DNA from: a virus
Virus record (IMG/VR): IMGVR_UViG_3300037961_006195
Span: 272 to 47,374 of that record
Reading direction: 5' to 3' (one strand)
DNA: 47,103 bases
Shown here: positions 9,442-33,151 of the stretch, one piece after another
How positions within the stretch are numbered: position 1 is the first letter of the stretch
How the letters are laid out: each line of letters opens with the position of its first letter
The notes under the pieces: generated by a model
Databases searched by the model: none
Seen by the model: only the letters and a program-made list of their open reading frames with translations
What the model was told of the DNA's origin: nothing
Made by a program: the position numbers and the translations under genes

Positions 9442-9449
9442 CTTTAAAC
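9442..9449 (-). promoter_or_regulatory. Candidate phage late promoter GTTTAAAG
   Basis: GTTTAAAG on the minus strand within ATTTTTTGTTTAAAGTC, nearly the same 15 bases as at 25232. It lies between the stop at 9458 and the start at 9397. Confidence 0.6.
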
Positions 9450-9457
9450 AAAAAATC

Positions 9458-11449
9458 CTAGGAGAGAACGGCAGTGCGTACTGTTTTTATCTCGATTTGT
9501 CCTATGGTTGCTGCATATCTCTGGAAGTATATTTCTACATTGCTACCTACAACGTTTGCAGAAAAATCTCCGAGTCTTTGATTCAGAGTAGAGGCCGTTC
9601 CGTAATCCACGACATCTACATCAGTTCCGTTATGAACCACGAGTAGTTCTGTAACTTGATAATTTACTGGTATGCCTGCTCCTCCTAAAGAAATCTGGAC
9701 AAAGATTTTTGCAGAACGATACGTTGATGGGAAAGAGTCGATGGTGGTTCTCTGAGTGTTGCCTAGTGGTTCGTTAGATGTAGATACCTTTTCTTGGGTT
9801 TTACTATCAGTGTTTCCGTCCCATAAAAATTCATAGGCCCCGAAGCTAATCTCGTCTGCGAAAGTAATCTCATTTTCGCCATCACCAGCAACATAGGTCC
9901 TAAAGGCTTCAGTGTCTAATCTATAGGCAGTTGCATGATCGCCGGTGGATCCTACAAAAATATATCCTTGTTCTAACTGTACTTGGTTATCAATATCTGG
10001 ATGATTGATAAATATTCTTCCATCAGCGCTCCCACTTGATTCTTTTAATAGGAGTCCTATGGGCTGCCTTTCTCCCTGAGATACTGTAGGAGGTACAAAG
10101 GTGAGTCCGCCTCCCGCTTTAACATATACTACACTTCCAGACTCATCGCTGTTTACGGGGTTGGAATCAATTGTTAAGCTATTTCCAACTTTTAACTCTC
10201 CGTATACTGTAACTATTCCGAGGCTGTTCGCCGCAATATCTGCACTAGCAAGGCCAATAGCTCTCATTGTAGTACTTGTTGCTGCATCTGCAGGACCTAC
10301 AGTAACTACTTTATTGATAGGGTCAAATCCAACAAAATAAACCGGAGTCCAGGCGTTAATTATATTTCCAGTAGAGTTTTTAACGTCAATAGTTACAGAA
10401 GAACCTACAATCTCTGAGATGTTTGTGTTAGTTCTTTGATAGATCCTTACGTTTCCATTTTGGGTGTTTTGAAATATATCCCATCTACCGTCGCTTATCT
10501 GGGACGTATTTGGAAACTCTGATAGACCTTTTACTTCAAAGTTACCAGATTGAAGTACATTGTAGTCTCTATCTAAGACCAGCTTAGGGGAATATTTGAT
10601 CTTTACATTTCCTGTAGCTAATACATCAGCCGATCCGTTATTAAGACTAAATGTATTAAGGGCCGCGTTAGAAACAGTATAGTTTCCAGAAGTTAAGCCA
10701 CCGGCAGTTGTACCGTCATTGAGGAACGGTTCAACAAAAATTTCCTCCCCGTTGAATAATCCGTGATCGTTGTACGTAAAAGTCGACGAGCTTGTTCCTG
10801 TTACACTGTCTGTTTGAAAATAATAAGCAGTAGCCGAAGCTAACGATACGTTGTCAGAATTTACTTCTACGTTAGAAGAATTAACAATTGTGTTATTACC
10901 CGCATTTATTACAGCAGTTGCAAAATTTGCCCCGTCATTGATGATGAGCTTATTTCCTGCGGAGGTGGACTCTCCTCTAACAACGTTTTTATTGTTTATA
11001 AGGATCTGGTTTCCGTCAGTGTGAACAATATCATCACCATCTGCGCCATTTACAAATTGGTCTAGGTTTCCTTGTACAGAGGCAAATTGGCCTTTAAATA
11101 CTTCTACCCACTCTCCGGCGTTATTATTTAAATATTTATTATAAATATAAATTGCTGCGTCTTCTTCCTCTACGCTTCCAGGGAAGTTTGTTCTTTTAAT
11201 CCATAGTTCACCATGAGAGAGCTCTGGAAACCCATCTATTGCCGCTGAGGGATCTGGAGCTGTAGAAGAATAATAAACTCCACCCACTCTTCTTATATGG
11301 CTATTCTCGTCTTTAATATATAGACCGGGGTCTTCGTCGTTAAAATTTACTGCAAGTTCTCCCCACTGGATATCCGTAGTTAGAGGTCTTTTATTTTTTA
11401 CACGCGATCTTCTGTGTAAAATTACGTCTCTTGGTGAGGTATTTGTCAT
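9458..11449 (-). CDS. Tail-fibre/baseplate-type structural protein (663 aa)
   Basis: The N-terminus (IQWGELAVNFNDEDPGLYIK) matches the common phage fibre motif WGELAVNxxD..LYxK. The central region is Ser/Asn/Thr-rich beta sequence (LINNKNVVRGESTSAGNKL) and the C-terminus ends in a compact beta domain. This predicts a trimeric fibre or baseplate-attached structural protein. It starts one base before the end of the upstream 277-residue gene, so the two are probably co-translated. Confidence 0.7.
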   Translation of the reverse strand: MTNTSPRDVILHRRSRVKNKRPLTTDIQWGELAVNFNDEDPGLYIKDENSHIRRVGGVYYSSTAPDPSAAIDGFPELSHGELWIKRTNFPGSVEEEDAAIYIYNKYLNNNAGEWVEVFKGQFASVQGNLDQFVNGADGDDIVHTDGNQILINNKNVVRGESTSAGNKLIINDGANFATAVINAGNNTIVNSSNVEVNSDNVSLASATAYYFQTDSVTGTSSSTFTYNDHGLFNGEEIFVEPFLNDGTTAGGLTSGNYTVSNAALNTFSLNNGSADVLATGNVKIKYSPKLVLDRDYNVLQSGNFEVKGLSEFPNTSQISDGRWDIFQNTQNGNVRIYQRTNTNISEIVGSSVTIDVKNSTGNIINAWTPVYFVGFDPINKVVTVGPADAATSTTMRAIGLASADIAANSLGIVTVYGELKVGNSLTIDSNPVNSDESGSVVYVKAGGGLTFVPPTVSQGERQPIGLLLKESSGSADGRIFINHPDIDNQVQLEQGYIFVGSTGDHATAYRLDTEAFRTYVAGDGENEITFADEISFGAYEFLWDGNTDSKTQEKVSTSNEPLGNTQRTTIDSFPSTYRSAKIFVQISLGGAGIPVNYQVTELLVVHNGTDVDVVDYGTASTLNQRLGDFSANVVGSNVEIYFQRYAATIGQIEIKTVRTAVLS

Positions 11450-11450
11450 G

Positions 11451-12284
11451 TCAGTATTCTAAAGCGTCTAATAAGAAGTTGCCGTCGGTTCCTTGAGTTA
11501 CTTGGTCAATTGTAGTTGTGATAAAAGATTCCATAAACTGTTTGTTCACGGCATCAAAATCATTGACAGGATCTGCTACATCAGAGATTCTTCTCTCACT
11601 TAATTCTAAACCGATTCCTCCAACATTGACATTCTCTCCGAGTGTAACAGTATTTACAAACTTTGCTTTGCCATCTGCATATATAGAAGCAAGATAGTCA
11701 GTAGAAGTATTTTCCCATCTCTGTACTTCGGTCATTCCATCGTTATTTGACGACCTTACAATAAAACTCGCAGATAAATTAGTTACCTCTGGGATAATTG
11801 TTGCTTCCGCAACAGTTGCAGGAGTTTTTGAAATATAATCACCAGTGATAGATAGAGCAGAAATTAAACTATCTACTTGGGTCCTTGTATATAAGACACT
11901 TTGAGTGTAATAATTTTGAGCAAGATTATTATTTATAGAAGATAATTGACTTGCTAACTCTGTATCAACGTACGTTGTTAACGCGTAGCTACCCAGAGAA
12001 AGATTATTAATTACAGCATCGACTTCAGATTTAGTATATAAAACGTTTCTCTCATAAGTCTTAGAGATATCTGCTTTAGTATCTAGATATTTGTCAACTT
12101 CTCTTTTTGTATAAAAATCTCTTAGATCTGTAGTTCCTGTTGTCCTTGATTCTCCGCTAAATACATTAGGACTAGACGAGACTGATCGGCCAGGTGAAAC
12201 CTGATGCCTCGGAGATTGTAGGATAGTTCCGTTAGTTCCGCAGGATCCGCTAGAATTAGATCCTCCGCCAAATACATTTGCCAT
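11451..12284 (-). CDS. Fibre-like structural protein with YTK-EVD repeats (277 aa)
   Basis: After a Gly/Ser-rich N-terminus (MANVFGGGSNSSGSCG) come three or four copies of a repeat like FYTKREVDKYL, LYTKSEVDAVI and LYTRTQVDSLI (~83-145). These repeats are typical of triple-helical or coiled-coil phage fibre shafts. The C-terminal part ends in LDALEY. GTTTAAAG occurs only six bases before its ATG. Confidence 0.7.
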   Translation of the reverse strand: MANVFGGGSNSSGSCGTNGTILQSPRHQVSPGRSVSSSPNVFSGESRTTGTTDLRDFYTKREVDKYLDTKADISKTYERNVLYTKSEVDAVINNLSLGSYALTTYVDTELASQLSSINNNLAQNYYTQSVLYTRTQVDSLISALSITGDYISKTPATVAEATIIPEVTNLSASFIVRSSNNDGMTEVQRWENTSTDYLASIYADGKAKFVNTVTLGENVNVGGIGLELSERRISDVADPVNDFDAVNKQFMESFITTTIDQVTQGTDGNFLLDALEY

Positions 12285-12290
12285 ACTTTA

Positions 12291-12298
12291 CTTTAAAC
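12291..12298 (-). promoter_or_regulatory. GTTTAAAG match very close to a start codon
   Basis: GTTTAAAG on the minus strand, but only six bases separate it from the ATG at 12284. If it works like the other copies, the mRNA would be leaderless. It may be a chance match. Confidence 0.3.
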
Positions 12299-12314
12299 CT
12301 CAGATTAAAATTGA

Positions 12315-13655: not shown

Positions 13656-13677
13656 ACCTCAACCCTCCTATAATAGA

Positions 13678-14106: not shown

Positions 14107-14141
14107 AGTAAATTATGTTATATGCAATATTTCTAAATTAT

Positions 14142-14149
14142 ATTTAAAC
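14142..14149 (-). promoter_or_regulatory. Variant late-promoter motif GTTTAAAT
   Basis: Minus-strand AGTTTAAATATAATT differs from GTTTAAAG only at the last base. It lies 35 bases before the tail tube start in the short gap after the portal. It could give the tube gene extra expression. Confidence 0.35.
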
Positions 14150-14157
14150 TAGGTGGA

Positions 14158-16035
14158 TTATTGAAAGTATGGATCAAACCATCTCCAGTATCCTTTACTC
14201 TCTATGTCAAGAGTAACACATTCTCTATGGACGGTGTATCTATTTAATCTAAATACTCTTTCATATAAAGCCACTAGATCTTTTGCTCCGCATTCTGACA
14301 GTCCTTCTTGTTCTATAAGGCTCTTCATCTTTTGAATTTCTGTCTCACAAGAGGACTTGACTTCTAAAGTCTCTGGAGGTAGCTTGCGAACGTTTCTAAT
14401 TTCCTCAAGGAGTCTTTCAATAACAAACACGATTTCTCCAGGAGAGGTAAACTCGTCGATCTTGAGCCTAGAAATTTGCATTTCGTTACCAGTGGCATCC
14501 GAAACAATTCTTTGGAACCCGACATCGTCAAGATCTCCTTTGAACTTGGCCGCGATCTCCTGAGACATCTTCTGCTTATCAGAAGCTTCCTCGAAGTCAA
14601 AGAGTTTCATGAGTTCAGTTCCAAACTCCAGATCCTCGGACATAGGAGCCTCACCTTCTTGACCTTCCTCCATAGGAGGCATCATTCCGGCACCCATCAT
14701 TCCCATACCACCCTCAGGCATTTCTTGCTTAATGAGTGATGGAATATTAAGTTTCTCTCTGAGCCAATCTACGTCCTCTACTTGATATCCCAATGCTCCT
14801 AACTGAGATAGAACCTGAACCATACGCACAGGATCTTCGCGTTGCTTAAGATCTTCAAAGTTACGAACTAGTCTCGGGGGCGTCTTACCTGGATAGTTAA
14901 GTTCTACAATCCATCGGACCAACGTAGAGTTAATTGTTTCGTCAAGCTCTTCAGAGAAGGCTTTAGCCTTTCTCATACGAACAGAGTCGGCGATTTGATC
15001 GCGCGCAAATGAGCCAACACTACCAGTTTCTTGGCCAACTGTAGTCTCTCCGTTAATTACGAAGCTAATTTGCTGGTCAATATACGTAATAAGCTGATTA
15101 TAAAGTTCTGGTCTTCCATTGCTTTCTAACCACTGAATATCCATTTCGTCTGGAATAACAACAGCGGTCTCTTGTCCTAAACGCTGAAGAGCACTAAACA
15201 AAGAATTAACCTCTTCCTCTGGAGTACCAAGGCTAAATTTACCAACTGCTGTAGGAGTTGTATGCTTATCAGAATACTGCAACCAGAAATTAAGTAAAGT
15301 TCTTCTGAACTCCACAAGAGGATATAACTGCCTTCCAAGACCTGATCCATGCACATCCATAAAGTTGCTATAGGACCAGTGCCTATGCATAATCATAGAT
15401 CTTAGGGGGATGCCCATGCCCTCCACTGGAGAGAACATAGTAATAAGCCTAGGGCTTACTGTTCCATCTTCGTTGAGGCGGAATAAGAAACGTCTTGGGT
15501 CTCTAATTTTAATCTCAGAAGGTACAATATATTTTCCTTGCCTCATCCAGCAGATTTCACCAATCGACATACCTAGTACAATCGATTCGCACATTCCGCG
15601 GATAAACGTATCAAAACCTGAACTCGTGGATACTAGAGACTCTTTACCATAGGACTGACGAGTGTTGCTACCCATGCGATTAATCACTTGGCGCACAAAC
15701 TCTGCAATCTCTTCGTCTTCGGCTCTATCGGATGAAGGGTATACTTCCCAAGGTCTTTGGATAATCTCACCTATTAGCTTTTCCCAAGCAGCAAGTATTT
15801 GACTGTCGTTAAACAGCCTCATATACTTCTCAATTGCTCGTGGGCCACCACCACCTTCTTCTAGAAGGATATCATCTCTACGTGGGAGGATCACTCCGCT
15901 AGTGAGATAAGGTGCTCCTGAGTAGGAATAGGGATCTGATTTATATCCCGCTAAGTTTCCTTGAGGAGTGCCCAGGGAAAAATAACGATCGAAAAACCCA
16001 GATTTAATATGCCTTTGGGGATTTTCAGAGGTCAT
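14158..16035 (-). CDS. Portal protein, Mu gp29/DUF935-like (625 aa)
   Basis: Residues ~60-420 follow the DUF935 portal pattern: repeated polar helices, IGEIIQRPWEVYPSSDRAEDE, FRRTLLNFWLQYSDKHTTP, then NGETTVGQETGSVGSFARDQ. The portal forms the dodecameric DNA gate at the capsid vertex. A Met/Gly/Glu-rich linker (MPEGGMGMMGAGMMPPMEE) joins a C-terminal extension of ~170 residues not usual in Mu gp29. GTTTAAAG lies 26 bases before the ATG, inside the end of the upstream gene. Confidence 0.85.
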   Translation of the reverse strand: MTSENPQRHIKSGFFDRYFSLGTPQGNLAGYKSDPYSYSGAPYLTSGVILPRRDDILLEEGGGGPRAIEKYMRLFNDSQILAAWEKLIGEIIQRPWEVYPSSDRAEDEEIAEFVRQVINRMGSNTRQSYGKESLVSTSSGFDTFIRGMCESIVLGMSIGEICWMRQGKYIVPSEIKIRDPRRFLFRLNEDGTVSPRLITMFSPVEGMGIPLRSMIMHRHWSYSNFMDVHGSGLGRQLYPLVEFRRTLLNFWLQYSDKHTTPTAVGKFSLGTPEEEVNSLFSALQRLGQETAVVIPDEMDIQWLESNGRPELYNQLITYIDQQISFVINGETTVGQETGSVGSFARDQIADSVRMRKAKAFSEELDETINSTLVRWIVELNYPGKTPPRLVRNFEDLKQREDPVRMVQVLSQLGALGYQVEDVDWLREKLNIPSLIKQEMPEGGMGMMGAGMMPPMEEGQEGEAPMSEDLEFGTELMKLFDFEEASDKQKMSQEIAAKFKGDLDDVGFQRIVSDATGNEMQISRLKIDEFTSPGEIVFVIERLLEEIRNVRKLPPETLEVKSSCETEIQKMKSLIEQEGLSECGAKDLVALYERVFRLNRYTVHRECVTLDIESKGYWRWFDPYFQ

Positions 16036-16047
16036 TAAAACAACACA

Positions 16048-16242
16048 TTATTCTTCGTTATCTTTAAACTGAGTTGGCTCAACTACCTTTGTTAAGTCTA
16101 CATACACAGTTTCAAGATCCATGAGTTTCTCTGTGAGTTCTTCCCTGGTTAGCTTCCCGGCCTCCCATTCTGCAATTAGTTCCTCGGCGCCTTCGACTCT
16201 GACGTTTTGGCCCCGTGTCAAGATGTTGATTCCTTCTTCCAT
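16048..16242 (-). CDS. Small hypothetical protein upstream of portal (64 aa)
   Basis: It begins MEEGINILTRGQNVRVEGAEE and continues as a helical region (LIAEWEAGKLTREELTEKLM), ending acidic. It overlaps the end of the 321-residue gene by about 25 bases. The coding end contains the late promoter motif for the portal. The fold and function are unknown. Confidence 0.55.
   Translation of the reverse strand: MEEGINILTRGQNVRVEGAEELIAEWEAGKLTREELTEKLMDLETVYVDLTKVVEPTQFKDNEE
16062..16069 (-). promoter_or_regulatory. Candidate phage late promoter GTTTAAAG
   Basis: GTTTAAAG lies inside the last codons of the 64-residue gene, 26 bases before the portal ATG at 16035. The spacing matches that of the other copies. 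Confidence 0.55.
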
Positions 16243-17183
16243 TTTTCGAAGTCCTTGCGAATAGTTAGATAAAATTCAGAATAAGTTTTGCGCCAGGTTT
16301 CATCGTATTTCCTGACATATTTGAAATAGTTTTCTTCCCAAGTTTTAAGGTCATATACTTCTTTATACTCTTCTGGAACACTTAAAGAGAAGTTTTTAAG
16401 TTCAAGTGCAAGTACTGCACTCATAAAATCGCCTCTTTTTGCAATCATTTGCTCTTTAAGGCTTTTCAGATCAATGTGGGGAAAGACTTCCTTTACTTTA
16501 TTGAATAAAGGAGAAGTAAGAAGATCTGACCTTTTCTTTTCTTTTTCTTTCTTGATCGTTTCTTGATATGCATTATCAAGGATCCCTGCAATAAACGTAG
16601 AGTTAAATTCTACATTGGCTCCTTCGTTAATGTCTGCCCAGAATTTTTTAAATGCATCATATCCTCTGACAATAGTAATGTTTGCATAAGATTGCATTTT
16701 CTGCTTGATGTCACGTTTAGCGGCATCGATATAATGCATATCTTTTCCATCCGGCCAGAAAGCAAATCTTTGAGCAAGAGAGTTTGACCACAAAAATGTA
16801 GTCAAAAGCTTTTTAATCCTAGGATCAGAAATGTCTTTCTTAGGAAGATCATCGATGTCTAATATTGCTTTCTTCCAGTCGTAGAAGATATCAACAGCTT
16901 TGTTCTCTGCCGCTTGCCAAACTGGAGTCTTTGAAAGCTTTCCGATATGAGTCTCATCTAGTTCTCCGTACCCAGTGAGATCGTTGATAAGGACATCGTC
17001 TTCAGAAAGGCTCTCAGAAGTGATAACTTTTGGTTTACCGAGTCCCTTGGCATTTGCATTAAACTCTACTACCCACTTATCATGCGCAAGCTGTTGCTCA
17101 AACTTCCATTTATCATGCGCTAAGATTTTATCCAGTAGCCCTTCTGGAATATTACTTAGAGCTAGTATCTCCGGTGCTATCAT
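16218..17183 (-). CDS. Unknown protein upstream of portal (321 aa)
   Basis: A charged, Trp/Lys-rich, largely helical sequence with two near-identical short units, LAHDKWKFEQQ and LAHDKWVVEFN (~22-42). I see no catalytic motif. Position before the portal would suit a packaging or head-assembly accessory protein, but this is guilt by association. It overlaps the upstream 155-residue gene by 32 bases, and AAGG falls just before the ATG. Confidence 0.6.
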   Translation of the reverse strand: MIAPEILALSNIPEGLLDKILAHDKWKFEQQLAHDKWVVEFNANAKGLGKPKVITSESLSEDDVLINDLTGYGELDETHIGKLSKTPVWQAAENKAVDIFYDWKKAILDIDDLPKKDISDPRIKKLLTTFLWSNSLAQRFAFWPDGKDMHYIDAAKRDIKQKMQSYANITIVRGYDAFKKFWADINEGANVEFNSTFIAGILDNAYQETIKKEKEKKRSDLLTSPLFNKVKEVFPHIDLKSLKEQMIAKRGDFMSAVLALELKNFSLSVPEEYKEVYDLKTWEENYFKYVRKYDETWRKTYSEFYLTIRKDFEKWKKESTS

Positions 17184-17619
17184 CCTTACTTGCTTGACGT
17201 AACTTAAGATCTATATAGCTCATTATATCACGATGATTCCAACAGTCAACAATATTTTCAAATAATTTCTCATCTACACGACCTAGGTCCATTCCAAAGG
17301 TCAAAATTTTATTTATTTCGTTCCAGCAGTTGCTTCCAGGCTCGTCAAACAAAAAGATTTTCTTATCTTTAGTTATTTCTAATTTTTCTAAGATCCCTAG
17401 AGTACTAAATACATTGGAGAGCAGAGTGTTGTCCCAGCCAGCAAAAACAACAAAATCAGCACCTTTAACCAGCGCTTCTGTTATAGACTGTCTTACTTTT
17501 ACTTCGACACCTTCTTTCTCGGTGAGGATCTGATCTAAATGAACAACCATCTTGTTGAGATCAGACGCGTTATCAACAGACTTAGATTTTACAATAACTA
17601 CAGAAGTTTTGGCGGGCAT
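17152..17619 (-). CDS. Unknown protein, possible Rossmann-like fold (155 aa)
   Basis: Alternating hydrophobic strands and helices (TSVVIVKSKSVDN, GADFVVFAGWDNTLLSNVFS, KKIFLFDEPG) suggest a Rossmann-like alpha/beta protein. The FAGW and DEPG turns recall LOG/nucleotide-binding proteins, but the diagnostic PGGxGT motif is absent. It is the first gene of the minus-strand virion block, with a GTTTAAAG element 21 bases before the ATG. Confidence 0.55.
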   Translation of the reverse strand: MPAKTSVVIVKSKSVDNASDLNKMVVHLDQILTEKEGVEVKVRQSITEALVKGADFVVFAGWDNTLLSNVFSTLGILEKLEITKDKKIFLFDEPGSNCWNEINKILTFGMDLGRVDEKLFENIVDCWNHRDIMSYIDLKLRQASKDDSTGDTSSK

Positions 17620-17640: not shown

Positions 17641-17648
17641 CTTTAAAC
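17641..17648 (-). promoter_or_regulatory. Candidate late promoter GTTTAAAG (divergent pair, minus arm)
   Basis: GTTTAAAG on the minus strand, 21 bases before the ATG at 17619. It is paired with a plus-strand copy at 17654, five bases away. Confidence 0.65.
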
Positions 17649-17653
17649 CTAAA

Positions 17654-17661
17654 GTTTAAAG
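17654..17661 (+). promoter_or_regulatory. Candidate late promoter GTTTAAAG (divergent pair, plus arm)
   Basis: GTTTAAAG within AAAGTTTAAAGTTTAAG, 20 bases before the ATG at 17682. With the minus copy at 17641 it makes a near-symmetrical divergent promoter between the two virion blocks. Confidence 0.65.
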
Positions 17662-17681: not shown

Positions 17682-20600
17682 ATGCTCTCGGAATTAACAA
17701 TAACTCAGGTACGGGGAGTAAGAGGTAGTCTACCTACAATCATAGACAGTTCCTTTGTTATTTACGAAAGAGAAATAGAAAAGTTAAATGTCTTGGTAGA
17801 AAAAGAGACATTTAAAAAGGCTATGTTTGAGTATATCACGGTTATTTTAGACCGGATCGAAAAAGACAAGCCGTTGACCACGGTGCCCTTGTATGCCACA
17901 CTCTCATATGTCTTAGTTCAATTACAATTTGATGTAGCAAGATTCTTAGGGTTATATGCGATAATAAATAACGCAATCATAGAATTTCTAAGCGTTGCTT
18001 ATAATAGAAAAAATACTTCTTTAGAGGGGTATATAAAGGGATATTACACCGCAGTTCAGACCTCTTTAGATGGCCTTAATATATTCTTAAAGGGCCTACA
18101 AACAGAACAAATTGTACAGTTAATATCGGAATACGCTCCATCTTTAGCAGTTGTCAAAGATACTTTTTCTATCAGACAACTCAGTAATAACACTATATAC
18201 ACGCTTTTTGGAGAAGATAATTACTGGGAAGTTCAATCAAGAAAATATAAAAAAGATCCAACTTTTTCTACTAGGGACTATACTATATTAGACGGAACAC
18301 TTTATGTGCTAAATAAGGATGTTGGTATTTCTCGTCCCGATCCTGAATTTGATCCAGATCAATGGAGCGAATATAAGTCAAAATTCCTTGATAGAAATAA
18401 AACATTTAAAAGCAGATTTAAGAGAAGCGTTAGTAAATACGTTGTAAATGCTTTAGAGCAATCTGGAGATATTAATGAAGCTATTTCTGACAGCAAAGTA
18501 GTTTCAGAAACAGCTAATCTTGTATATGACGAGAAGGATCTGTCTTTAACTTTTGGTGGATCTGGCAAAAATATCATTGAGAATGTTTTATCTCTTAAAA
18601 CCGTAATAAAATACTTCGGGAACAAAGAGTCTTCTCCCGTAGGAGATATCGATTTTGTTGCTTCTTTTTGTGAATATCTTTACGCAGGGTGCTACGGCAG
18701 AAACCTTCCTTCAGGGTTTTCTGCATCTTCCGGTTTGAATATTTTTGGTAATTTTAACTTAATTTTTTACTATCCTCCAGAGTTAAATAAAATTGCTGGC
18801 TTAAAATTCATAGAAGGCTTTAAGGATCTAAAGTCTTTTAAGCAAAATCTTGATTTAGGAGCAGAAATAGCCGGGAGTCCAATAACTGATCCAATGGACA
18901 GAAAAGAGATTATTTATAATCCTATTTATGCAAAATATATTAAAGGCCTAAAAGATAGATTCTTATTTGATATTAGGAATCCGTATACTGACAACTATCA
19001 ATATAGCGTTGACGTTATACTATTTGGTCTAGAGTCAATTTCAGGTATAGCGGATATCTTAGGAGATACATTAGAAGCGCTTGGTAGTTCTCTTGGCAGA
19101 AACGGGACTCTACCTGGATACGAGGGCTTAGGGTCTATATCCTTACAAATAGAAGAGCTAAGAAAAGTTTTTATTCCAAAGCCAATGCTAGATGATCTTA
19201 CGTCTAGAGGAGAGAAAGTTTTACCAGGACTCAATGGCTTAACAACCTATCTTCTTAACTCTTATAAAAAGCTTACGTCCGTTGTACCAGACGTTCCATT
19301 TACAGGAGAGTCACTAGGACAACTCAGTGTTTGGGGTAGGAACGTACAAAAATACCTTGAGAGATTGCTTGCTGATACAAAGGGTATCGGGTATCTTCCA
19401 GGATCCTTTATACCTAACATTTCCTTTAAAAATTCTTCAGTAGAAAAAGGAGCGTTAATAGATCAGCTTAGATCTCTTAATTTTCAAGAAAGCGAGATTG
19501 ATAGGTTTATTTCTGCAGAATCTTTTGAGGAATTACTATTAGAATTTGCTCCTCTTTCAGACTCTAAAGACCAAGTCTCTTTCTTTAGAGGCTATGAATT
19601 ATCTCAGCTAATTTATGAGTTTGGAGGAGAAAGCGCAATTGACGCGTATTTAAGCTATCTTTATTCTCAAAATAACGAGGGATTAATTAACCTATTAAGC
19701 ATCTCTCTTAAAAATCAGTCTGAAGCTACAGTCTACAATACAAACAGATTTGGTAAGCTTGTCGGATTGCTCATGGGTTTGACATTTGCTATTGATCCAA
19801 AGCAGTTGGAACTATTTAGAGAGTACTTATCTGGAAATAACTTGACATTTTTTGAGTCAATCTCTTTCTTACTTAAGAATAAAGAGAAAAACATTCTCTT
19901 AGATAAAGATGAGATTAGCTTACTGAATCCAGTATCTAGATCTTTAATTTTTGGTAAGTCTCCGTTTGACTTAAACTCTTACTCTATTGATTATCAAACT
20001 GCAAATGAGCACGCTCCTCTTGCGTTAAAACAATATACTGAGATTTTAGATAAGAACTTAGGGGAGGCTTCTACAAATTTCTTACAAAATCTATACGATA
20101 AGAGTCAAGGACTAACAGTAAAAGAACTACTTAGAGTAATAAATCCTGAGTCTTTCCATACTGACCTAGGCCAATTACTAGATGGCTATGAGGGAGGAAG
20201 ACTAACGAGTGTAATTAATTATGCTTATTTTAGTGGAGTGCTTCACAAGGTAGGATACTATAATAATTCCTATCAAGCACCTAACTTCTTTGTTCAACCG
20301 GGAGGAGCTAATTTGGCGATCTTGGTGGAGATAATTAATTCACTAGTTCTTTCGTTAGACATAACATTAACCAATTTTGTTAATACTCTAGAAGATGATT
20401 TCTCTCAAGATGTACCAGAACTTTATTCGTTCTCGAATATTACTAATACATATAATAAAGAATTAGATACTCTTTCTAAATTAGTTAAGAACCTTGTGCC
20501 TATTGGGGGAGATCTTGGTAATCTGGGGACTCCTGAGATTATAGGTACTGAAACAATAATAGGAGCTCCAGGGATAGGTAATTCGCCTGTGCCAGAGTCC

Positions 20601-21530: not shown

Positions 21531-22660
21531 AAATATCAACTCATTTCTTATTAAGCGAGAAAGACACGGTTTTACTGCCTATAACTAAAAAACAAAATAG
21601 TCCGTTTAACTATGTAGAGTTCATAAATGAAAATATTGTATCAAACGACGAGGTATATCTTTCAAAACAAAAAGCAAACTCTTGTGCTTTAGATATTATA
21701 GTTAACTCCCCTCCTCCTATTAAAGAACTCAAATTAACAAACCAGAATATACTCACTTGGGACGATCTATGGCTCGATGGAGAGACGGGATATAGCGTTG
21801 ATCCGCAGATAGAGTCTATTAACTTGCAAAGAAATTCTCTTTTGTATGTTAATATGAATCTAAAAAGACACTACCTCAAGAGAATAAATCTAGAAGGAAA
21901 TACGGACCTAAAAACTTTTGTAGGGATAGATCTACCTGCTCTAGAGTATCTGGACTTCACCGATTGTATCAACTTAGAGTCTGTAACCATTGGATCTTCT
22001 AAGAATATCAAGGTATTGAGTTTAAAGAACTGTAGGTTAACAGGAGATGGACTAGAGAGAATATTAAGTTCTTTCAGCCCTACAAAAACGGCATCAGCCA
22101 ACATATTTCCAGGTACACTTCCGCCATTTAGGAAGCAATACACCACTCTACTAGATCTTAGAGGCAACGATATACCTTGGGGCAATAGCAGAATTGCTTC
22201 TAAAATAAGATTGTTAGTCACAAATAACTGGCTGGTACTATGGGATAGCGCTCCTCCAACTAGTGTAATTCCAATCCAGATGTACGCTTTCTTCCCTAAG
22301 AATCTAGGGGATACACAAATAGACGGATACTACGCAGGAGTTCAAATGAGACAAGCTCCTCCGACACCGACACCTCCTCCAGCTGCTGATCCTAGTACTC
22401 AGCCTCAAGCTCCAACTGCGGCTACTGGCCAGACCCCTCAGGCTTCTCAAGCTTCGGCTCCTCCGCCGGCACAGTCTCAGGCTCCAGCCCAGTCTCAGCC
22501 ATCCCCAAGTCCCTCTCCCCAGCCTTCTCCAAGTCCAAGTCCGAGCCCTGCTCCATCACCAAGCCCAAGCCCAAGCCCAAGCCCAAGCCCCAGCCCAAGT
22601 CCTACTCCATCACCCTCGCCTTCTCCGAGTCCAAGCGGCGGTTACGGCGGCTACTACTAA
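21527..22660 (+). CDS. Leucine-rich-repeat protein with Pro/Ser tail (377 aa)
   Basis: Residues ~65-215 carry irregular leucine-rich repeats (IESINLQRNSLLYVN, LKRINLEGNTDLKTF, LEYLDFTDCINLESV, IKVLSLKNCRLTGDG, LLDLRGNDIP), a solenoid suited to protein binding. Residues ~275-370 are a Gln/Pro/Ala then Pro-Ser repeat tract (PSPSPSP...) ending GGYGGYY. The protein resembles an adhesin with a stalk. It is coupled to the 1282-residue gene, and a 20-base gap leads to the next fibre-like gene. A virion-surface recognition role is inference. Confidence 0.75.
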   Translation: MKISTHFLLSEKDTVLLPITKKQNSPFNYVEFINENIVSNDEVYLSKQKANSCALDIIVNSPPPIKELKLTNQNILTWDDLWLDGETGYSVDPQIESINLQRNSLLYVNMNLKRHYLKRINLEGNTDLKTFVGIDLPALEYLDFTDCINLESVTIGSSKNIKVLSLKNCRLTGDGLERILSSFSPTKTASANIFPGTLPPFRKQYTTLLDLRGNDIPWGNSRIASKIRLLVTNNWLVLWDSAPPTSVIPIQMYAFFPKNLGDTQIDGYYAGVQMRQAPPTPTPPPAADPSTQPQAPTAATGQTPQASQASAPPPAQSQAPAQSQPSPSPSPQPSPSPSPSPAPSPSPSPSPSPSPSPSPTPSPSPSPSPSGGYGGYY

Positions 22661-24815: not shown

Positions 24816-25210
24816 ATTCTTCTCCGCTTGCAAGTAGAGCATCCGGCCCAACCATTAACCCTAGAGGGACCTGGATACTGAGTACCGGGAGCGTCTGTAT
24901 TAGAACTTACTTCATAAAGTCCTGGAGCTAAAGTTGATGCTTTCTTAGCTCTAGTGTTGGCCCAGTTTTGCCAGCCCCACATATCCTCTGAGCCATATAC
25001 ATGTGGATTTTGTTGAGAATTATTAGCCATAGCAGCTCTTGTATTTCTAGAAGGTCCTGAGTTAACTCTATTAGATGATTTTAAATACCGGTCCTGGGCA
25101 AGTGCCTCTCTAACATACGCAGTGTTCTGAGTTAGCTTATCTCTATAGTCTGCGTTCTGTCTCGAAGCTTTCCAAGACTCATATGGCGCATTGTTTGAAT
25201 TAATAGCCAT
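24812..25210 (-). CDS. Hypothetical protein (132 aa)
   Basis: An Asn/Ala/Arg-rich, probably disordered sequence (MAINSNNAPYESWKASRQN...), with WGWQNWANTRAKK in the middle and a C-terminal CSTCKRRRI. GTTTAAAG lies 21 bases before the ATG, so it is probably a late gene and possibly a minor virion component. No family recognised. Confidence 0.6.
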   Translation of the reverse strand: MAINSNNAPYESWKASRQNADYRDKLTQNTAYVREALAQDRYLKSSNRVNSGPSRNTRAAMANNSQQNPHVYGSEDMWGWQNWANTRAKKASTLAPGLYEVSSNTDAPGTQYPGPSRVNGWAGCSTCKRRRI

Positions 25211-25231: not shown

Positions 25232-25239
25232 CTTTAAAC
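25232..25239 (-). promoter_or_regulatory. Candidate late promoter GTTTAAAG (divergent pair, minus arm)
   Basis: ATTTTTTGTTTAAAGAC on the minus strand, 21 bases before the ATG at 25210 and almost identical to the copy at 9442. A plus-strand copy lies 17 bases away. Confidence 0.65.
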
Positions 25240-25256: not shown

Positions 25257-25264
25257 GTTTAAAG
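25257..25264 (+). promoter_or_regulatory. Candidate late promoter GTTTAAAG (divergent pair, plus arm)
   Basis: GTTTAAAG 27 bases before the ATG at 25292. A TATAAT-like hexamer (25275-25280) follows, so this start may have two promoter signals. Confidence 0.6.
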
Positions 25265-25291
25265 AAAGGTACGTATAATACAGTGTACATC

Positions 25292-25636
25292 ATGGCTACA
25301 AGCAAAATGTCCAGACCTGCAGCCGAGGAAGTTAGTGCTGGAGATACTACTTCATCTTTTGACTTCGGAGAGCCAGAGGTTGTTCCGGTAGAAATTAGCG
25401 AAGGAAAATTTCTATATCTAAAAGAACCCTGCGCAGAGGACCTTATTCATATTGCTGATATCAACGACGACGAAAAGTTGGGAGAGATTGAGGCAACCCT
25501 TCAGACGATTTGTATTCTTCACGCGCCCGAAAGAGGCGGCAAAAAACTCTCTATGAGAGACGCAAAAAGATTAACCGCAAGGCAACTCAAAAAAATTGGC
25601 GAAGCATTGGGGACCCTATTAGGATCGGATGAGTGA
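25292..25636 (+). CDS. Possible tail assembly chaperone (114 aa)
   Basis: I chose ATG 25292 over the in-frame GTG at 25283. The sequence (FLYLKEPCAEDLIHIADIND, then RLTARQLKKIGEALGTLLG) has the look of the small alpha/beta tail-assembly or tape-measure chaperones that precede tail genes in many contractile-tailed phages. That is inference from length, charge and position before the sheath. It overlaps the next gene by eight bases in a different frame, with no sign of a programmed frameshift. Confidence 0.55.
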   Translation: MATSKMSRPAAEEVSAGDTTSSFDFGEPEVVPVEISEGKFLYLKEPCAEDLIHIADINDDEKLGEIEATLQTICILHAPERGGKKLSMRDAKRLTARQLKKIGEALGTLLGSDE

Positions 25637-26315: not shown

Positions 26316-26323
26316 GTTTAAAG
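26316..26323 (+). promoter_or_regulatory. Candidate late promoter GTTTAAAG before the sheath gene
   Basis: GTTTAAAG 39 bases before the sheath ATG. A T4-late-like TATAAATA (26301-26308) lies eight bases further upstream. Confidence 0.6.
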
Positions 26324-26362
26324 ACAATCTGAAAGGCCTCTTACTTTGTAAAGATTTAATTT

Positions 26363-29300
26363 ATGGCTAATCCTGTAAACATTAATGTCGGCGCTCTACA
26401 GCGCCCTGGAGTGTTTGTTACTCAGTCTGCGACTGGCGGATTACCTCAACCTCTGGCGTCTCACGCTATTGGTTATATCTTTGGTTCTACACCTGTGGAT
26501 CCATATGATGAAAATCCCCTAGACGAGTATTCATCTCTACCTCCATATCTACCAACACAAGTTGGTTCGCTCGAAGATTGGGTTCAAAGAGCTGGTGGTG
26601 TTCCTACTGCCGCTAATAATCCCCAATCGATTACTTCATACGATTCTGTTAAAGCGTTCTTTGAGAACGTTGGTGTTAACGGAATTCTATACTACACTCG
26701 CGTAACTCCAACTCCAGAATCCAAGGTTGTCGTAACCAAGGGTGCTGGCTGGAACCTATTTGCTCTTAAAGTCGGTGATCGTTACTTCGGAGATAAGTCT
26801 CTGGGTATTAATGATGCCGCTGGCGTAGAAATCAAGGTCATTACAACTACTGCTCTTGATGCAAATGATAACGCGTTTGATATCGTAGGTTATCTTGCTG
26901 AAGACGATCCTGACTTCAAGACTTTCTATAGAATTGAGCAAACTGATGAAGAGGCTAAAAAAGCCACTTTCAGAATCTATTCTAAAGACGCTCGTCAGAT
27001 TCCTACAATTCAAAGCTTCAAAGGATACCAGATCTCTGATACAGCTTACGCAACTCCTACAGATGCAGGCACGATTAGTCGCTATGTTCCTATCAAAGAA
27101 CTCGACTTCCGTTGTATTGCAAGAGACGTAACTACTCAAGAGCCTGTACTTCCTATCTCTGGTTCTGCTATTGGTAACTTCTTAGAAGAAACTTCTGTAA
27201 GCGGAAACACTGCAGCTGCTGCTTCCTTCACTGCTTCGACCGGCGCAGTTAAGATGGCTGATATTACTAAGCTTAGCATTGGTTCTGACGCACTTGCTGC
27301 TGGAGATAAAGTTGTTTTTGAGGGTATTGATCCTGGTGCAGTTGCTTATAACGGAGCTGGAGAGCTTCCTTGCGGAAACATCTTCTATAGCACTACTTAC
27401 ACCGTTCTAAGCGTTAACGCTAGTACTAATACGTTCATTATCAATAATGGTTCTGGTGCTGCTTTAACTTTCACTTCTGACGACGCCTTAGAAGTTAGAG
27501 TCCGTAGACTAGCTTATGACCCAGAAGTTCAAGCCGATGTATTCAAAGCAATCGAAGACTTCCTAATCGACCAGGAAATCTACGCTACTGACGCTTTAAT
27601 TCCAGACAATAAAATTGTTGCTGTCACCACTGATGAAAGAGTCGGAAAAGACGATCATGTTAAATGGTCCGATGGATTTGCCGCTTACTATCAATGGGAT
27701 GCAAGCACTACCGCTTTCACTGCAGGAGCAGCTGGAGGAGGCCTAACTGAGGTTCCTAATGGAACAATCACTTCTGTAGGCGGTAATGTAACAAGAACCG
27801 GATACGTTCCTGATAGCGTTCAAGTTTTCTATGTAAATATCGCAGGTGAGAACAGAGTCATTATTGCTAATGGCGCAACTCCTGACGAGCTTACTGCCGA
27901 TATTGTTAAGTCGCTAAAAGAAGTATTAGCTGAGAAAGAGTTAGATCCTTTCTACGATGTAGAAGCAGTTGCTGTTGACTACTCTGGATTGGGCTCTGGT
28001 AACTTTGCACCTAACAACGGAATCGCAATTACCACCTCTACTGCTACTGCTGGTAAGCCTGCTCTTCGTCCTACAAATGACGGACAGCCTCTTACAGGTA
28101 CAATTGCTACTACGGCAGCTAACACAACTATCCAAGGATCTACTTCCGCTCAGAGTGGAACTGTTCAGCTTCTAGCAAGTGGTGCTCTAATGGGTACTAA
28201 CACAGAATTCCTTTCTGTTATTGCTCCTGGATACAGAATCCTCATTGGATCTGCCACATACGAAGTTGTTGAAGTTACCTCTAACACTCAGGCGATTGTA
28301 AGCAACCGTGCTGGAACTACCGTTGGTGCTGGAGCTTCTTATAGCACAGTAACCACAAGATTCACCGAAGATCTTTATGCTGGATCTTATGTTGTTATTA
28401 ACGGATACAGATTTGAAGTTGCTAGCGTAACTAACGACTCTGCTTTCGTAGTAACAACCGCTCCTACATTCACTGCAAGTTCTACTACAGTCTTCCTAGA
28501 TAGCTCCATTGCTAACGGATTCTATCGCCACGACTACATCCTTAAGGTCAAGATTACATCTAAGAATGGTATTCCTTCTCCGGTTGTTCCTGGTCTTAAT
28601 AGATATGGTCAGAAAGACACCAACGTTGTAAGAATTAGCTCTCTTTCTGAAGCAGCCGACTTCAACGCTTATAAGTTATCTGCAAAGGCAAGAGCTCAAG
28701 ACTTTGTTTATGCCATTGAGCAGGGCATGGGTGCCAGTGACTATCGTCCAGGCTTCCTCTTCGCTCCCGAAGCATATGCAAACTTCAAGCAAGAAACTGG
28801 TGTACTCACCAAGAAAGAAGCAAGAGAAGAAAGAGTCAAGGTTACTCAATCACTTCTAAAGGCTGCCGAAGGTAAGCTTGGCGAAGTTGAGGGTATCTCT
28901 GGAACTCAGCACATCGCTCTTATCGACTGCGGCGCTGATGAACTCAGCCTAAGCGAAGTACAAGACGAACTCTCTTATGTTAAGTATACTGCCGGAGCTC
29001 CTTTCGGTCATGGTGCTTTCTATGCTCCATACATTAAGAACGCTTCTGACAGATTTGTTCCTCCTAGCGCGTTCATTGCAGGTATTGCTTGCTCTAGATA
29101 CGTTAATGAAGGATTCCAACAATCACCTGCTGGCGCAAGATATCCGCTAAGAGGAGCCACCGGCCTTCGCTTTGATATCACAGCTCAACAGCAAGAAGTT
29201 ACATATCCTCTAGGCCTCAATCCTATTAGAAGCCTACCTAATAGAGGAATTGTTGCTTGGGGTGCTAGAACAATGAGTCCTAACGCTCTATTCAAGTATG

Positions 29301-29695
29301 TTAACACTAGAGCAATCCTTAACGTTCTTCTTGACGTTATGGCTAGAAGCTTTGACGATGTTCTCTTTGAACAGATTGACTCCGCGGGTACACTTTACTC
29401 CAGAGCCAAGTCTATCGCTTCTCAGGTTATGGGTCAACTCTATCGTCAGGGTGCTCTCTTTGGAGCAAGACCAGAGCAGGCATACCTGGTTGTTTGTTCT
29501 GATGCTAACAATAGCTTAAGTGATCTAGAAAATGGAACATTGAGACTTGATGCTTATGTGGCTACATCGCCAACTCTCGAGCGTCTAGTTGTTACTGTGG
29601 TTAGAACACCTGCTGGTCAGGTTGCTCAGGTACAGGATACATTCTCTAGAAACGTAGATAGATTCGACTATCTCCTTAACCAAACTACAGTTTGA
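26363..29695 (+). CDS. Tail sheath protein (1110 aa)
   Basis: The N-terminus (NVGALQRPGVFVTQSATGG) and C-terminal core (ISLPNRG-like RSLPNRGIVAWGARTM, VNTRAILNVLLDVMARSFD, then LERLVVTVVRTP) are diagnostic of contractile phage sheaths. The subunits form the contracting outer cylinder around the tail tube. At 1110 residues it is much longer than T4 gp18 (659). Extra material includes beta-type insertions at ~275-380 and ~590-715, where two similar units occur (YRILIGSATYEVVEVTSNT; YVVINGYRFEVASVTNDS). Codon choice suggests high expression. Confidence 0.93.
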   Translation: MANPVNINVGALQRPGVFVTQSATGGLPQPLASHAIGYIFGSTPVDPYDENPLDEYSSLPPYLPTQVGSLEDWVQRAGGVPTAANNPQSITSYDSVKAFFENVGVNGILYYTRVTPTPESKVVVTKGAGWNLFALKVGDRYFGDKSLGINDAAGVEIKVITTTALDANDNAFDIVGYLAEDDPDFKTFYRIEQTDEEAKKATFRIYSKDARQIPTIQSFKGYQISDTAYATPTDAGTISRYVPIKELDFRCIARDVTTQEPVLPISGSAIGNFLEETSVSGNTAAAASFTASTGAVKMADITKLSIGSDALAAGDKVVFEGIDPGAVAYNGAGELPCGNIFYSTTYTVLSVNASTNTFIINNGSGAALTFTSDDALEVRVRRLAYDPEVQADVFKAIEDFLIDQEIYATDALIPDNKIVAVTTDERVGKDDHVKWSDGFAAYYQWDASTTAFTAGAAGGGLTEVPNGTITSVGGNVTRTGYVPDSVQVFYVNIAGENRVIIANGATPDELTADIVKSLKEVLAEKELDPFYDVEAVAVDYSGLGSGNFAPNNGIAITTSTATAGKPALRPTNDGQPLTGTIATTAANTTIQGSTSAQSGTVQLLASGALMGTNTEFLSVIAPGYRILIGSATYEVVEVTSNTQAIVSNRAGTTVGAGASYSTVTTRFTEDLYAGSYVVINGYRFEVASVTNDSAFVVTTAPTFTASSTTVFLDSSIANGFYRHDYILKVKITSKNGIPSPVVPGLNRYGQKDTNVVRISSLSEAADFNAYKLSAKARAQDFVYAIEQGMGASDYRPGFLFAPEAYANFKQETGVLTKKEAREERVKVTQSLLKAAEGKLGEVEGISGTQHIALIDCGADELSLSEVQDELSYVKYTAGAPFGHGAFYAPYIKNASDRFVPPSAFIAGIACSRYVNEGFQQSPAGARYPLRGATGLRFDITAQQQEVTYPLGLNPIRSLPNRGIVAWGARTMSPNALFKYVNTRAILNVLLDVMARSFDDVLFEQIDSAGTLYSRAKSIASQVMGQLYRQGALFGARPEQAYLVVCSDANNSLSDLENGTLRLDAYVATSPTLERLVVTVVRTPAGQVAQVQDTFSRNVDRFDYLLNQTTV

Positions 29696-29704
29696 TAATT
29701 AAAA

Positions 29705-31573
29705 ATGTCTGATAATCAAGAACAGGTTTTAAACGCTAAAGAGCCTTTAACTTCTCAACAAAAAAAGAAGACTGTACACATTGAAATGTTCAGAGCTGGT
29801 CCGCAAATCAGCTCTACTGGACAAAAATTAATGTTCACAGAAGAGGATCTGGATCAAGTTGTAGGAACATACGCTCCTGATGACCACGAAGCCCCCTTGA
29901 TTATCGGGCATGATCAAACAGATGGAACCCCAGCATTGGGTTGGGTCAAGAATCTTTGGAGAAAAGGTAAGGCTTTATGGGGTAACGTTGAACTTACCCC
30001 TAAGGCTGAAAAACTAATTCGCGATGGAGTGTTTAAGAAAGTAAGTAGCTCCTTCTATTTACCCGAGGCGGAAACTAACCCCCACCCCGGCAAACTGGCG
30101 CTCCGCCACCTCGGATTAGTATCTATTCCTGCTGTTAAAGGCCTAACCGCTTTTTCCGAAGGTGAACTTAATAACGAAAAAATTATTAATCTAACCCCCG
30201 AAGATGGGGATATCACTATTTCGTTTAAAGAAGCCTTAGAAACAAACAACTCTGCTATGACTAAAAAGAAAACAGAAGACGTTGTCAAGGAGGTCACTGT
30301 TGATCAAAGCGCTGATCATGCAGAAGGCTCCATGACCGTCAACATTAACATCGGCGGAGGCAAGCCTTCCGTCTATGATGACTCCGGCAATCAAGTTAGC
30401 GAAACAGGTGCTCCTGCCGATTATAAAATGGAGTATGCCGCTGATGAAGAAACAGAAGAAGAAATGGCTCCAGAGGCCGAAGCTGAAGCTCCTGAAGCTG
30501 AAGGCGAAGGCGATGATATGGGACTAGAAGATGAAGGTGGCGAAGAAGAAGCCCCCGCTGAAGAGGAAGCTCCTGCCGAAGAAGGCATGGGTGATGAAGA
30601 AGGAGAAGGCGAAGAGCCTGCTGGTGAGGAAGGCGAAGAAGATATCTCTGGTGAAATGGAAGATAACGACAAGAAAATTGCCTCTCTAGCTGCCGAGTAC
30701 GACGAAGACGAGCTCTTCCAAGCACTGGCTCTCAAGAAGCAAGCCGGCTCCATGATGGAGAAGGATATGTCTTCTTATGGCGAAATGCCCGAAGGACTTA
30801 AGAAGCACATGGAAGAGAAAGAAGGTAAAGGAGAGGACGAAGAAGAGAAGAAAGAAGAGGCTGATCACTCTGAAGAAGTGGTCGATAACGCTGAAGAAAA
30901 GAAAGAGGAAGAAGTAAGCGATAACGCTGAAGAAGCTCCTGAGGCCAAGGAAGAAGCTAAAACTGACATGGCTGAAGAGGAAAAAGAGGAAGAGGAAGAA
31001 GAGAAATCTGATATGTCAGAAGAGGTTAAAGAAGAGAAGAAAGAGACTGCTGATCACGCCGAAGAAGCTGCACCTCTGGCTACCGAATCTCTAGATCATG
31101 GCGAAGCTGCCATTGGAGATCAGAGCATTGATACCCTCAACGCTCGTGTAGCCGAACTCGAGGAAGAGCTTAATAAGCAAAGAAAGCTTGCTCGCGAGAA
31201 AGAGATTTCTTCGTTTGCTGAAGGACTCTATGAGTCTGGAAAGCTCACAGAACAAGTTGTACCTAAAGGTGATCTTGTTCGCTTCATGGAGACACTTAAC
31301 CATAAGAACTCTGTGAATTTCTCAGAGACCGGAAAGGCCTCTCAGTTTGACTTCATGCGTGGAGTCCTTGAGTCCCTACCTTCCATGGTCTCGTTTGAAG
31401 AGTTTGCAACACCAGCTTCCGCTCCTAAGAAGTCGAAGTCGGTAGAGCCCAACGCTTCTGGATACGCTTACGATCCAAACACCGCTGATGTTCATGCCGA
31501 TGCGTTATCTTACGCTGAAGAGAATGGATGCGATTACTTAACAGCTGTTAAGTTTGTTATTAACAACAACTAA
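29705..31573 (+). CDS. Prohead protease fused to scaffold, Mu I/Z-like (622 aa)
   Basis: Residues ~20-155 resemble Mu protein I: LMFTEEDLDQVVGTY, EAPLIIGHDQTDGTPALGWV with a candidate catalytic His, KALWGNVELTPKA, then FKKVSSSFYLPEA with candidate Ser. This protease would mature the capsid and remove scaffold. An extremely acidic Glu/Ala/Gly/Pro region (~245-470) follows. The last ~150 residues hold a coiled coil (LNARVAELEEELNKQRKLA) typical of scaffold/GPO-like delta domains. It lies nine bases after the sheath and before the capsid genes. Confidence 0.8.
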   Translation: MSDNQEQVLNAKEPLTSQQKKKTVHIEMFRAGPQISSTGQKLMFTEEDLDQVVGTYAPDDHEAPLIIGHDQTDGTPALGWVKNLWRKGKALWGNVELTPKAEKLIRDGVFKKVSSSFYLPEAETNPHPGKLALRHLGLVSIPAVKGLTAFSEGELNNEKIINLTPEDGDITISFKEALETNNSAMTKKKTEDVVKEVTVDQSADHAEGSMTVNINIGGGKPSVYDDSGNQVSETGAPADYKMEYAADEETEEEMAPEAEAEAPEAEGEGDDMGLEDEGGEEEAPAEEEAPAEEGMGDEEGEGEEPAGEEGEEDISGEMEDNDKKIASLAAEYDEDELFQALALKKQAGSMMEKDMSSYGEMPEGLKKHMEEKEGKGEDEEEKKEEADHSEEVVDNAEEKKEEEVSDNAEEAPEAKEEAKTDMAEEEKEEEEEEKSDMSEEVKEEKKETADHAEEAAPLATESLDHGEAAIGDQSIDTLNARVAELEEELNKQRKLAREKEISSFAEGLYESGKLTEQVVPKGDLVRFMETLNHKNSVNFSETGKASQFDFMRGVLESLPSMVSFEEFATPASAPKKSKSVEPNASGYAYDPNTADVHADALSYAEENGCDYLTAVKFVINNN

Positions 31574-31584
31574 GGTAAATACTA

Positions 31585-32085: not shown

Positions 32086-32108
32086 TAAATAAAGGAGAAT
32101 ATTAAATC

Positions 32109-33092
32109 ATGATGAATCTAGATCAAGTACGCGTAATTGACCCTATTCTTACGCAACTCGCCCAAGGCTACAAGAACGCTGAAGGCGTCGCTACATTCTT
32201 CGGTCCTGCTGTATCTATGAATACACGCGCTGGCCGTACCCTCGTATTCGGCAAAGAAGCCTTTGCTGCTCAGAATTTCCTCCGTTCGCCTGGAACTAAC
32301 ATTCAGAAGATCCAGAACGAGTTCGGAACACGTTCGTTCGCTCTCCGTCAGGAAGCGATCAGCTGGGAAATTGCTGAGGAAATTGCTGCTGAGGCTAAGA
32401 ACGGAGCTGCTCAAATTGACCTCCGTCAGTATGCCGCTAAGGACGCTGCAAACCGTCTAATGCAATCCTGGGAGATCACCGTTGCTGATGCTGTTACAGC
32501 TTCTGCTTCCTACGAGACCTCCTGTGTATTCGACCTCGCAACTCGTGCTTCTGGTGCTGACCAGTTCAACCAGGCCACTTCTGACGTTGAGGTTCTAATC
32601 GACGAAGCTAAGGAAGCCGTTCGTGCTCAGATCGGTACCTATCCTAACAAGATGGTTATCTCTCCTGATGCTTTCAACGCCCTCAAGCGTAACAAGAGAA
32701 TTCGTGACTTCATGCAGCGCGGTGTTCTCGTCAATGAGTCGACTCTTGCCAACATCTTTGGTCTTGACGAGATTCGTGTTGCACGTCGTCTCAAGCTTAA
32801 CCAGTCCTCCGGTGCTCTTGAGAACATCTACAGCAACGTAGCCGTTCTCTTCTATCAGCCCTCTGGTGCTACTGATGGTTTTGCTCCTGCGCTCGATGCC
32901 AACTATGGTAATCCTGCGTTTGCTTACACCTACACTCTTGCTGGCTATCCTATCGCCACTCCTGAGCGTTTCAACATCGAGCGCCGTGTCTTCACCGGTG
33001 ACATCCTCGTTGAGCGTTCCTTCGAGCTCGTAGGTATGGGCGAAAACGGTAAGGTTGGCGCTGGCGCTATCCTCACCAACGTTGTTGCCTGA
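32109..33092 (+). CDS. Major capsid protein, HK97-fold (327 aa)
   Basis: Position after protease, scaffold and decoration genes, length and sequence (GTRSFALRQEAISWEIAEEI; PNKMVISPDAFNALKRN; RLKLNQSSGALENIYSNVAV) fit major capsid proteins of the Mu/HK97-fold type. It has a strong ribosome site, AAAGGAG, ten bases before the ATG. Codons are far richer in C/G endings than the neighbouring genes, as expected for the most expressed protein. A strong terminator follows. Start could be either of two adjacent ATGs. Confidence 0.85.
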   Translation: MMNLDQVRVIDPILTQLAQGYKNAEGVATFFGPAVSMNTRAGRTLVFGKEAFAAQNFLRSPGTNIQKIQNEFGTRSFALRQEAISWEIAEEIAAEAKNGAAQIDLRQYAAKDAANRLMQSWEITVADAVTASASYETSCVFDLATRASGADQFNQATSDVEVLIDEAKEAVRAQIGTYPNKMVISPDAFNALKRNKRIRDFMQRGVLVNESTLANIFGLDEIRVARRLKLNQSSGALENIYSNVAVLFYQPSGATDGFAPALDANYGNPAFAYTYTLAGYPIATPERFNIERRVFTGDILVERSFELVGMGENGKVGAGAILTNVVA

Positions 33093-33117
33093 TATATAAT
33101 CTACAACCTAACAAAGT

Positions 33118-33143
33118 GGCTGGCCTTCGGGTCGGCCCTTTTT
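33118..33143 (+). terminator. Rho-independent terminator after major capsid gene
   Basis: GGCTGGCC-TTCG-GGTCGGCC makes an eight-pair stem with a stable tetraloop and a run of Ts. A GTTTAAAG element begins in the very next base, so one transcript ends and another may start here. Confidence 0.85.
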
Positions 33144-33151
33144 GTTTAAAG
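33144..33151 (+). promoter_or_regulatory. Candidate late promoter GTTTAAAG after terminator
   Basis: TTTTTGTTTAAAGTAAAAAG, 23 bases before the ATG at 33175. Position directly behind the terminator strongly suggests a genuine restart of transcription. Confidence 0.7.

Follow-up and report, generated by a model that had tools for sequence, protein, structure and literature searches.

Late genes of T4, and of the T4-like cyanophages as well, are transcribed by host core polymerase carrying the phage protein gp55 (with gp33 and gp45), from virion-gene promoters that consist of an 8-bp, -10-type word without a -35 element (PMC2988020). Phage K late promoters reportedly retain nothing but a -10 motif (PMC9241854), and Ma-LMM01 has been reported to use host-type promoters throughout (PMC5780444). 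Here we describe an 8-letter word, GTTTAAAG, in a 47,103-nucleotide (nt) stretch of viral DNA (IMG/VR record IMGVR_UViG_3300037961_006195; the whole stretch is referred to as the window). An initial annotation, made from the letters of the window, had proposed this word as the phage's own late promoter, and the checks that can be made on sequence support that reading. Judged by its enrichment and conservation, GTTTAAAG is a real, conserved, phage-specific promoter element. We assign a probability of roughly 80% to the more specific reading that it forms the core of a promoter specific to S-TIM5-like cyanophages, which serves mainly virion genes and most likely consists of a -10 element only, read by the phage sigma factor SigF. 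Systems of this kind are known (T4 gp55, SPO1 gp34), and the promoter word and the lineage look undescribed in the searchable literature; a search that did not reach the original S-TIM5 genome paper returned neither the motif in this context nor Aurunvirus.

Megablast of window positions 9-33.5 kilobases (kb) matched only the cyanophages S-TIM5, S-TIM54, S-TIM61 and S-TIM66, at ~79% identity. The gene order of the window is that of part of S-TIM5 in reverse orientation, with virion genes at ~9-35 kb and DNA polymerase and metabolic genes thereafter. By similarity and gene order, the window (IMG/VR, G000, 47 kb) is a fragment of an S-TIM5-like cyanophage, and it ends short of the sigF region. 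By identity to the window portal, relatives in IMG/VR form two clades, one near (72-100%) and one far (58-65%, ~62%).

Enrichment and conservation of the motif

An exact scan of the window found 11 copies of GTTTAAAG (Table 1), against 3.2 +/- 1.9 in shuffled sequences, none of 100 of which attained 11. Nine of these copies fall inside the 2.8% of the sequence that lies upstream of open reading frames (ORFs; p ~1e-12). The nine copies in the initial annotation all proved correct in coordinates and strand, and two exact intragenic copies, at 22020(+) and 30223(+), were absent from its list. The gap of 20-44 nt to the start codon that it gave for the eight promoter-position copies nearly holds, the actual range being 18-44 nt; the lowest value belongs to the 25257 copy and is measured to the GTG at 25283, whereas the following ATG gives 26 nt. 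Its further details were borne out: the 6-nt distance at 12291(-), the two back-to-back divergent pairs (17641/17654 and 25232/25257), the location of the 33144 copy directly behind a terminator-like GGGTCGGCCC-TTTTT, the ATTTTTTGTTTAAAG common to the 9442 and 25232 copies, and the absence of exact copies from 1-9.4 kb and 35-47 kb of the window.

The deposited annotation of the S-TIM5 genome places 25 of 36 copies no more than 60 nt upstream of a same-strand gene, a space that makes up 3.3% of the genome, and the word is thus not equally frequent in coding regions. It ranks first among the 9370 8-mers seen upstream (p ~3e-29); if 8-mers that are shifts of this word are set aside, TGATATAAT comes second. 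Most single-base variants show no upstream bias, and GATTAAAG retains it partly (8/16). The search of relatives that the initial annotation had called for showed conservation site by site. GTTTAAAG heads the upstream 8-mers in the near pool (116/174 copies) as well as in the far pool (74/98), and upstream of orthologues of the eight canonical window sites it was kept in 150/150 near and 41/62 far regions. For control window genes that lack the word, the corresponding figures were 0/149 and 2/91. The 17654 site is kept in 24/24 near relatives although the protein of gene 17682 is only ~32% identical among them, and the 13-base offset of the 17641/17654 pair recurs in far contigs. At 12291, the same 6-nt spacing is found in 13/20 near relatives despite divergent upstream DNA, and three others have, in the same place, a word that differs by one base. 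A 159-kb far contig (G001) carries 24 of its 34 copies at promoter position. Chance occurrence of an AT-rich word would account for ~3 copies per 47 kb, but the reversed word occurs only 8 times in S-TIM5 and 6 times in S-TIM54, against 36 and 38 copies of GTTTAAAG. Together with the lack of upstream bias in most single-base neighbours, the upstream enrichment in S-TIM5 and the orthologous footprinting already refute this explanation, to which we attach a negligible probability.

Table 1. Copies of the motif and the predicted nested reading frame, in window coordinates; the last two columns give the orthologous upstream regions that keep the word.
Feature	Position	Strand	Context	Near clade	Far clade
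GTTTAAAG	9442..9449	(-)	44 nt before virion gene 9155-9397(-)	13/13	4/5
GTTTAAAG	12291..12298	(-)	exactly 6 nt before ATG of 11451-12284(-); predicted leaderless start
GTTTAAAG	16062..16069	(-)	26 nt before portal gene 14158-16035(-)	34/34	9/12
GTTTAAAG	17641..17648	(-)	left half of divergent pair; 21 nt before 17152-17619(-)	27/27	18/22
GTTTAAAG	17654..17661	(+)	right half of divergent pair; 20 nt before virion gene 17682-21530(+)	24/24
GTTTAAAG, intragenic	22020..22027	(+)	in 21527-22660(+); probable internal promoter for virion gene 22681-23766(+)
GTTTAAAG	25232..25239	(-)	left half of second divergent pair; 21 nt before 24812-25210(-)	19/19	1/10
GTTTAAAG	25257..25264	(+)	right half of second divergent pair; before 25283-25636(+)	19/19	9/10
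GTTTAAAG	26316..26323	(+)	39 nt before tail sheath gene 26363-29695(+)	11/11	0/3
GTTTAAAG, intragenic	30223..30230	(+)	in head protease gene 29705-31573(+), 26 nt before in-frame ATG
Predicted nested scaffold ORF, 438 amino acids	30257..31573	(+)	in frame with protease gene; ATG is codon 185
GTTTAAAG	33144..33151	(+)	after terminator-like hairpin and T-run; 23 nt before 33175-33972(+)	3/3

The word is particular to this group and shows no enrichment in T4-like cyanophages or Synechococcus. In Synechococcus RCC307 and three other host-group genomes it occurred no more often than the reversed word, and a host alternative-sigma word was rejected for lack of excess there; its counts in Syn9, P-SSM2 and Ma-LMM01 did not exceed those of the reversed word either. 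Two further candidates for a shared motif were discarded: sigma-encoding Cr-LKS4 has 14 copies against 4 of the reversed control, but inspection of its gene table placed them mostly off promoter positions, and MaAM05 has 16 against 12.

In S-TIM5, 17 of the 25 first genes behind GTTTAAAG are labelled virion, versus 1 of 15 behind TGNTATAAT, and 43 of the 47 virion genes follow a promoter-position copy in a same-strand run, versus 68 of the 165 other genes. S-TIM5 therefore has promoters of two classes: one is host-like, with an extended -10, and the other carries GTTTAAAG. The earlier statement that all copies lie in the virion block needs loosening: the genes served are mainly virion genes, but full genomes also have copies before a few non-virion genes.

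Several S-TIM5 early and middle genes are preceded by GATTAAAG, which is one base from GTTTAAAG (8/16 copies; L001-L004) and is perhaps a weaker or different promoter class. A conserved GTTTAAAG is located ~200 nt before psbA in S-TIM5 (8047(+)) and S-TIM54 (7859(+)), which suggests from its placement that this photosynthesis gene may also be transcribed late. A psbA 94% identical to that of S-TIM5 is present on a contig labelled Euryarchaeota archaeon TMED129 (L198), which is probably a misbinned phage or cyanobacterial contig.

Promoter architecture

The gap between motif and start codon is mostly 18-30 nt, and the transcription start should therefore lie close behind the motif, leaving room only for a -10 role. 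Over 49 sites there is no conserved column at -35 distance; TTGACA is not in excess, and no fixed downstream -10 was found behind GTTTAAAG. A strong second downstream element was also rejected, the only signal being a modest TA(G) preference at offset 5-6; weak as it is, this preference fits a start 6-7 nt past the motif. With such a start, the N6-ATG arrangement at 12291, kept in 13 near relatives, leads to the prediction that gene 11451-12284(-) makes a leaderless late mRNA. That the word acts as a -10 element, that SigF reads it and where transcription starts are inferences, as is the late timing, which is deduced from the class of the genes served.

Alternatively, host polymerase with a host sigma could transcribe these genes, with GTTTAAAG serving as an activator box for another phage protein in the manner of T4 MotA, or as a -35 element, and a separate -10 downstream. 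TATAAT-like hexamers do occur at some spacings behind the motif, but the 28 sites that have one are not in excess of shuffled leaders (24 +/- 3.4), and many starts would fall at or inside coding sequence, with implied leaders of -8 to +6 in most cases. GTTTAA resembles the -35 of SigB/SigF-type (group 3 sigma) promoters, and the phage sigma matches SigF models best; however, the best match to a GGGTAT-type -10 partner at the required spacing does not exceed 4/6 in any of the 36 S-TIM5 sites, and most sites are too close to the start codon to be a -35. Spacing and the lack of a partner element thus disfavour both roles, and we consider this account unlikely.

A control site other than a promoter, such as an operator, a leader-RNA processing site or a translation signal, would agree with the nearness of GTTTAAAG to start codons, which is just 6 nt at 12291. 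Against this, the motif is strand-specific, occurs once per operon and not once per gene, is absent before most downstream operon genes, and may lie as far as 82-84 nt (probably 200 nt at psbA) from the start; a phage sigma gene is also present. Such a function appears distinctly improbable.

The phage sigma factor SigF

The look for a phage sigma-like gene that the initial annotation had recommended turned one up in S-TIM5, S-TIM54, S-TIM66 and each of the five far portal contigs that measure 89 kb or more. In S-TIM5 it is located at 110339-111109(-) and annotated SigF. Its region 2 matches Pfam Sigma70_r2 (E 4e-5, 0.3 bits below the gathering score) and a PHROG sigma family (E 5e-18), the best-matching model is SigF (E 4e-11), and the profile matches cover regions 2-3. 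Foldseek on a weak structure model returned nearly all sigma factors, with ~220 columns aligned. The clades differ by ~35% over the whole protein but hardly at all in region 2, and the motif is likewise nearly invariant.

In S-TIM5 and its relatives sigF lies behind a host-type TGGTATAAT promoter. In every relative inspected, the thioredoxin-sigF unit is preceded by TG[GA]TA[TC]AAT and never by GTTTAAAG, and the former is kept although the flanking DNA is unrelated between clades. A host-type promoter at this place, never GTTTAAAG, therefore points to a cascade from host sigma to SigF to the late genes. In the proposed mechanism, host sigma would act first, at TGNTATAAT promoters, which serve the thioredoxin-sigF unit as well as the early and middle genes. 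Region 2 of SigF, on host core RNA polymerase, would then bind GTTTAAAG as a -10 element without a -35 partner, and transcription would start ~6-7 nt past the motif, often at TA(G). SigF would bring polymerase to ~27 genomic GTTTAAAG promoters, among them divergent pairs, the N6-ATG leaderless type and, within the head protease gene, one that serves a nested scaffold.

Several observations weigh against this interpretation. Profiles did not recognise sigma region 4 in SigF, and the structure model is weak (predicted local distance difference test, pLDDT, 59), so that missing -35 contacts are not proved. The TA(G) preference at the start site is modest, with TAG or TAC at offset 6 in 11/49 sites, and some copies of GTTTAAAG precede non-virion genes (alpha-GT; the gap between alpha-GT and psbA).

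The proposed system resembles that of T4 gp55 in having a phage-encoded sigma-family protein, an 8-bp -10-type word without a -35, and use at virion genes. It differs in its sigma, which matches SigF/SigA regions 2-3, and in its word, which is GTTTAAAG and not TATAAATA, the T4 late word. The initial annotation had also set the motif apart from the T4-like word, and rightly: TATAAATA is upstream of only 1/212 S-TIM5 genes and was rejected as the S-TIM5 late word. Tblastn with S-TIM5 SigF did not match gp55 of T4-like cyanophages at E up to 0.01, and the deposited S-TIM5 annotation has no gp33 or gp45 homologues, no profile search having been aimed at these. SPO1 and Kayvirus (gp34-type sigma) are alike in that a phage sigma turns on the late genes; they differ from the S-TIM5 group in phage lineage, host and promoter word.

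Whether the whole picture holds we regard as an even bet: an ocean myovirus lineage with virion proteins that are not T4-like and a late switch of its own, made up of a SigF/SigA-like phage sigma expressed from a host-type promoter, a -10-only GTTTAAAG, an intragenic promoter for a separate scaffold transcript, and at least one leaderless late mRNA. GTTTAAAG and SigF would form a directly testable late switch, and the motif allows late operons to be recognised on any fragment of the lineage, even where the sigma gene is off the contig. If true, cyanophages would have a second type of -10-only late promoter, one distinct from that of T4.

A thioredoxin-like gene (S-TIM5 111106-111420(-)) is directly coupled to sigF in all relatives inspected, and a redox link to the late switch is possible. 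The near-clade leader from TGGTATAAT to thioredoxin-sigF (S-TIM5 111421-111502(-); L013-L034, L037, L038) contains hairpin-like GTCGT..ACGAC and GTTAG..CTAAC, shows apparent compensatory changes, and is followed by GAGCGCACGCG; RNA regulation of sigF through this leader is a possibility.

Intragenic copies and neighbouring features

The product of gene 29705-31573(+) is a Mu-like protease (head maturation protease), with Mu-like_Pro at residues 73-201. Codons 173-185 have the top synonymous conservation among the first 290 codons (0.96 vs a median of 0.59 in the near clade, 0.97 in the far clade), the ATG at codon 185 is invariant in near and far relatives, and TTAG stays 5 nt after the 30223 motif, even where the far clade is one codon short. 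Because of these constrained codons, the invariant ATG and the conserved TTAG, 30223 has the anatomy of a nested-scaffold promoter, and the start at 30257 is probably that of a Mu I/Z-like nested scaffold with its own promoter in the protease gene. Phage Mu I/Z and lambda C/Nu3 share the in-frame nested start behind a head protease domain (Mu gpI family); they differ from the window, where the nested start apparently has a promoter of its own within the protease gene. Transcription may thus have a part in setting the ratio of protease to scaffold.

The 22020 copy coincides in the near clade with the most synonymously constrained stretch of gene 21527-22660; with both clades pooled the stretch is unremarkable, and the copy is absent in the far clade. 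Its target is most likely the virion gene at 22681, ~650 nt downstream. From these constraints, both intragenic copies look functional.

Of the remaining features, the head protease gene has a long acidic C-terminal part, and the 16062 copy overlaps the end of the gene preceding the portal gene. The window also carries tRNA-Val (tac) at 45237-45310(-) and tRNA-Gly (tcc) at 46514-46585(-), both tRNAs being present in S-TIM5 as well.

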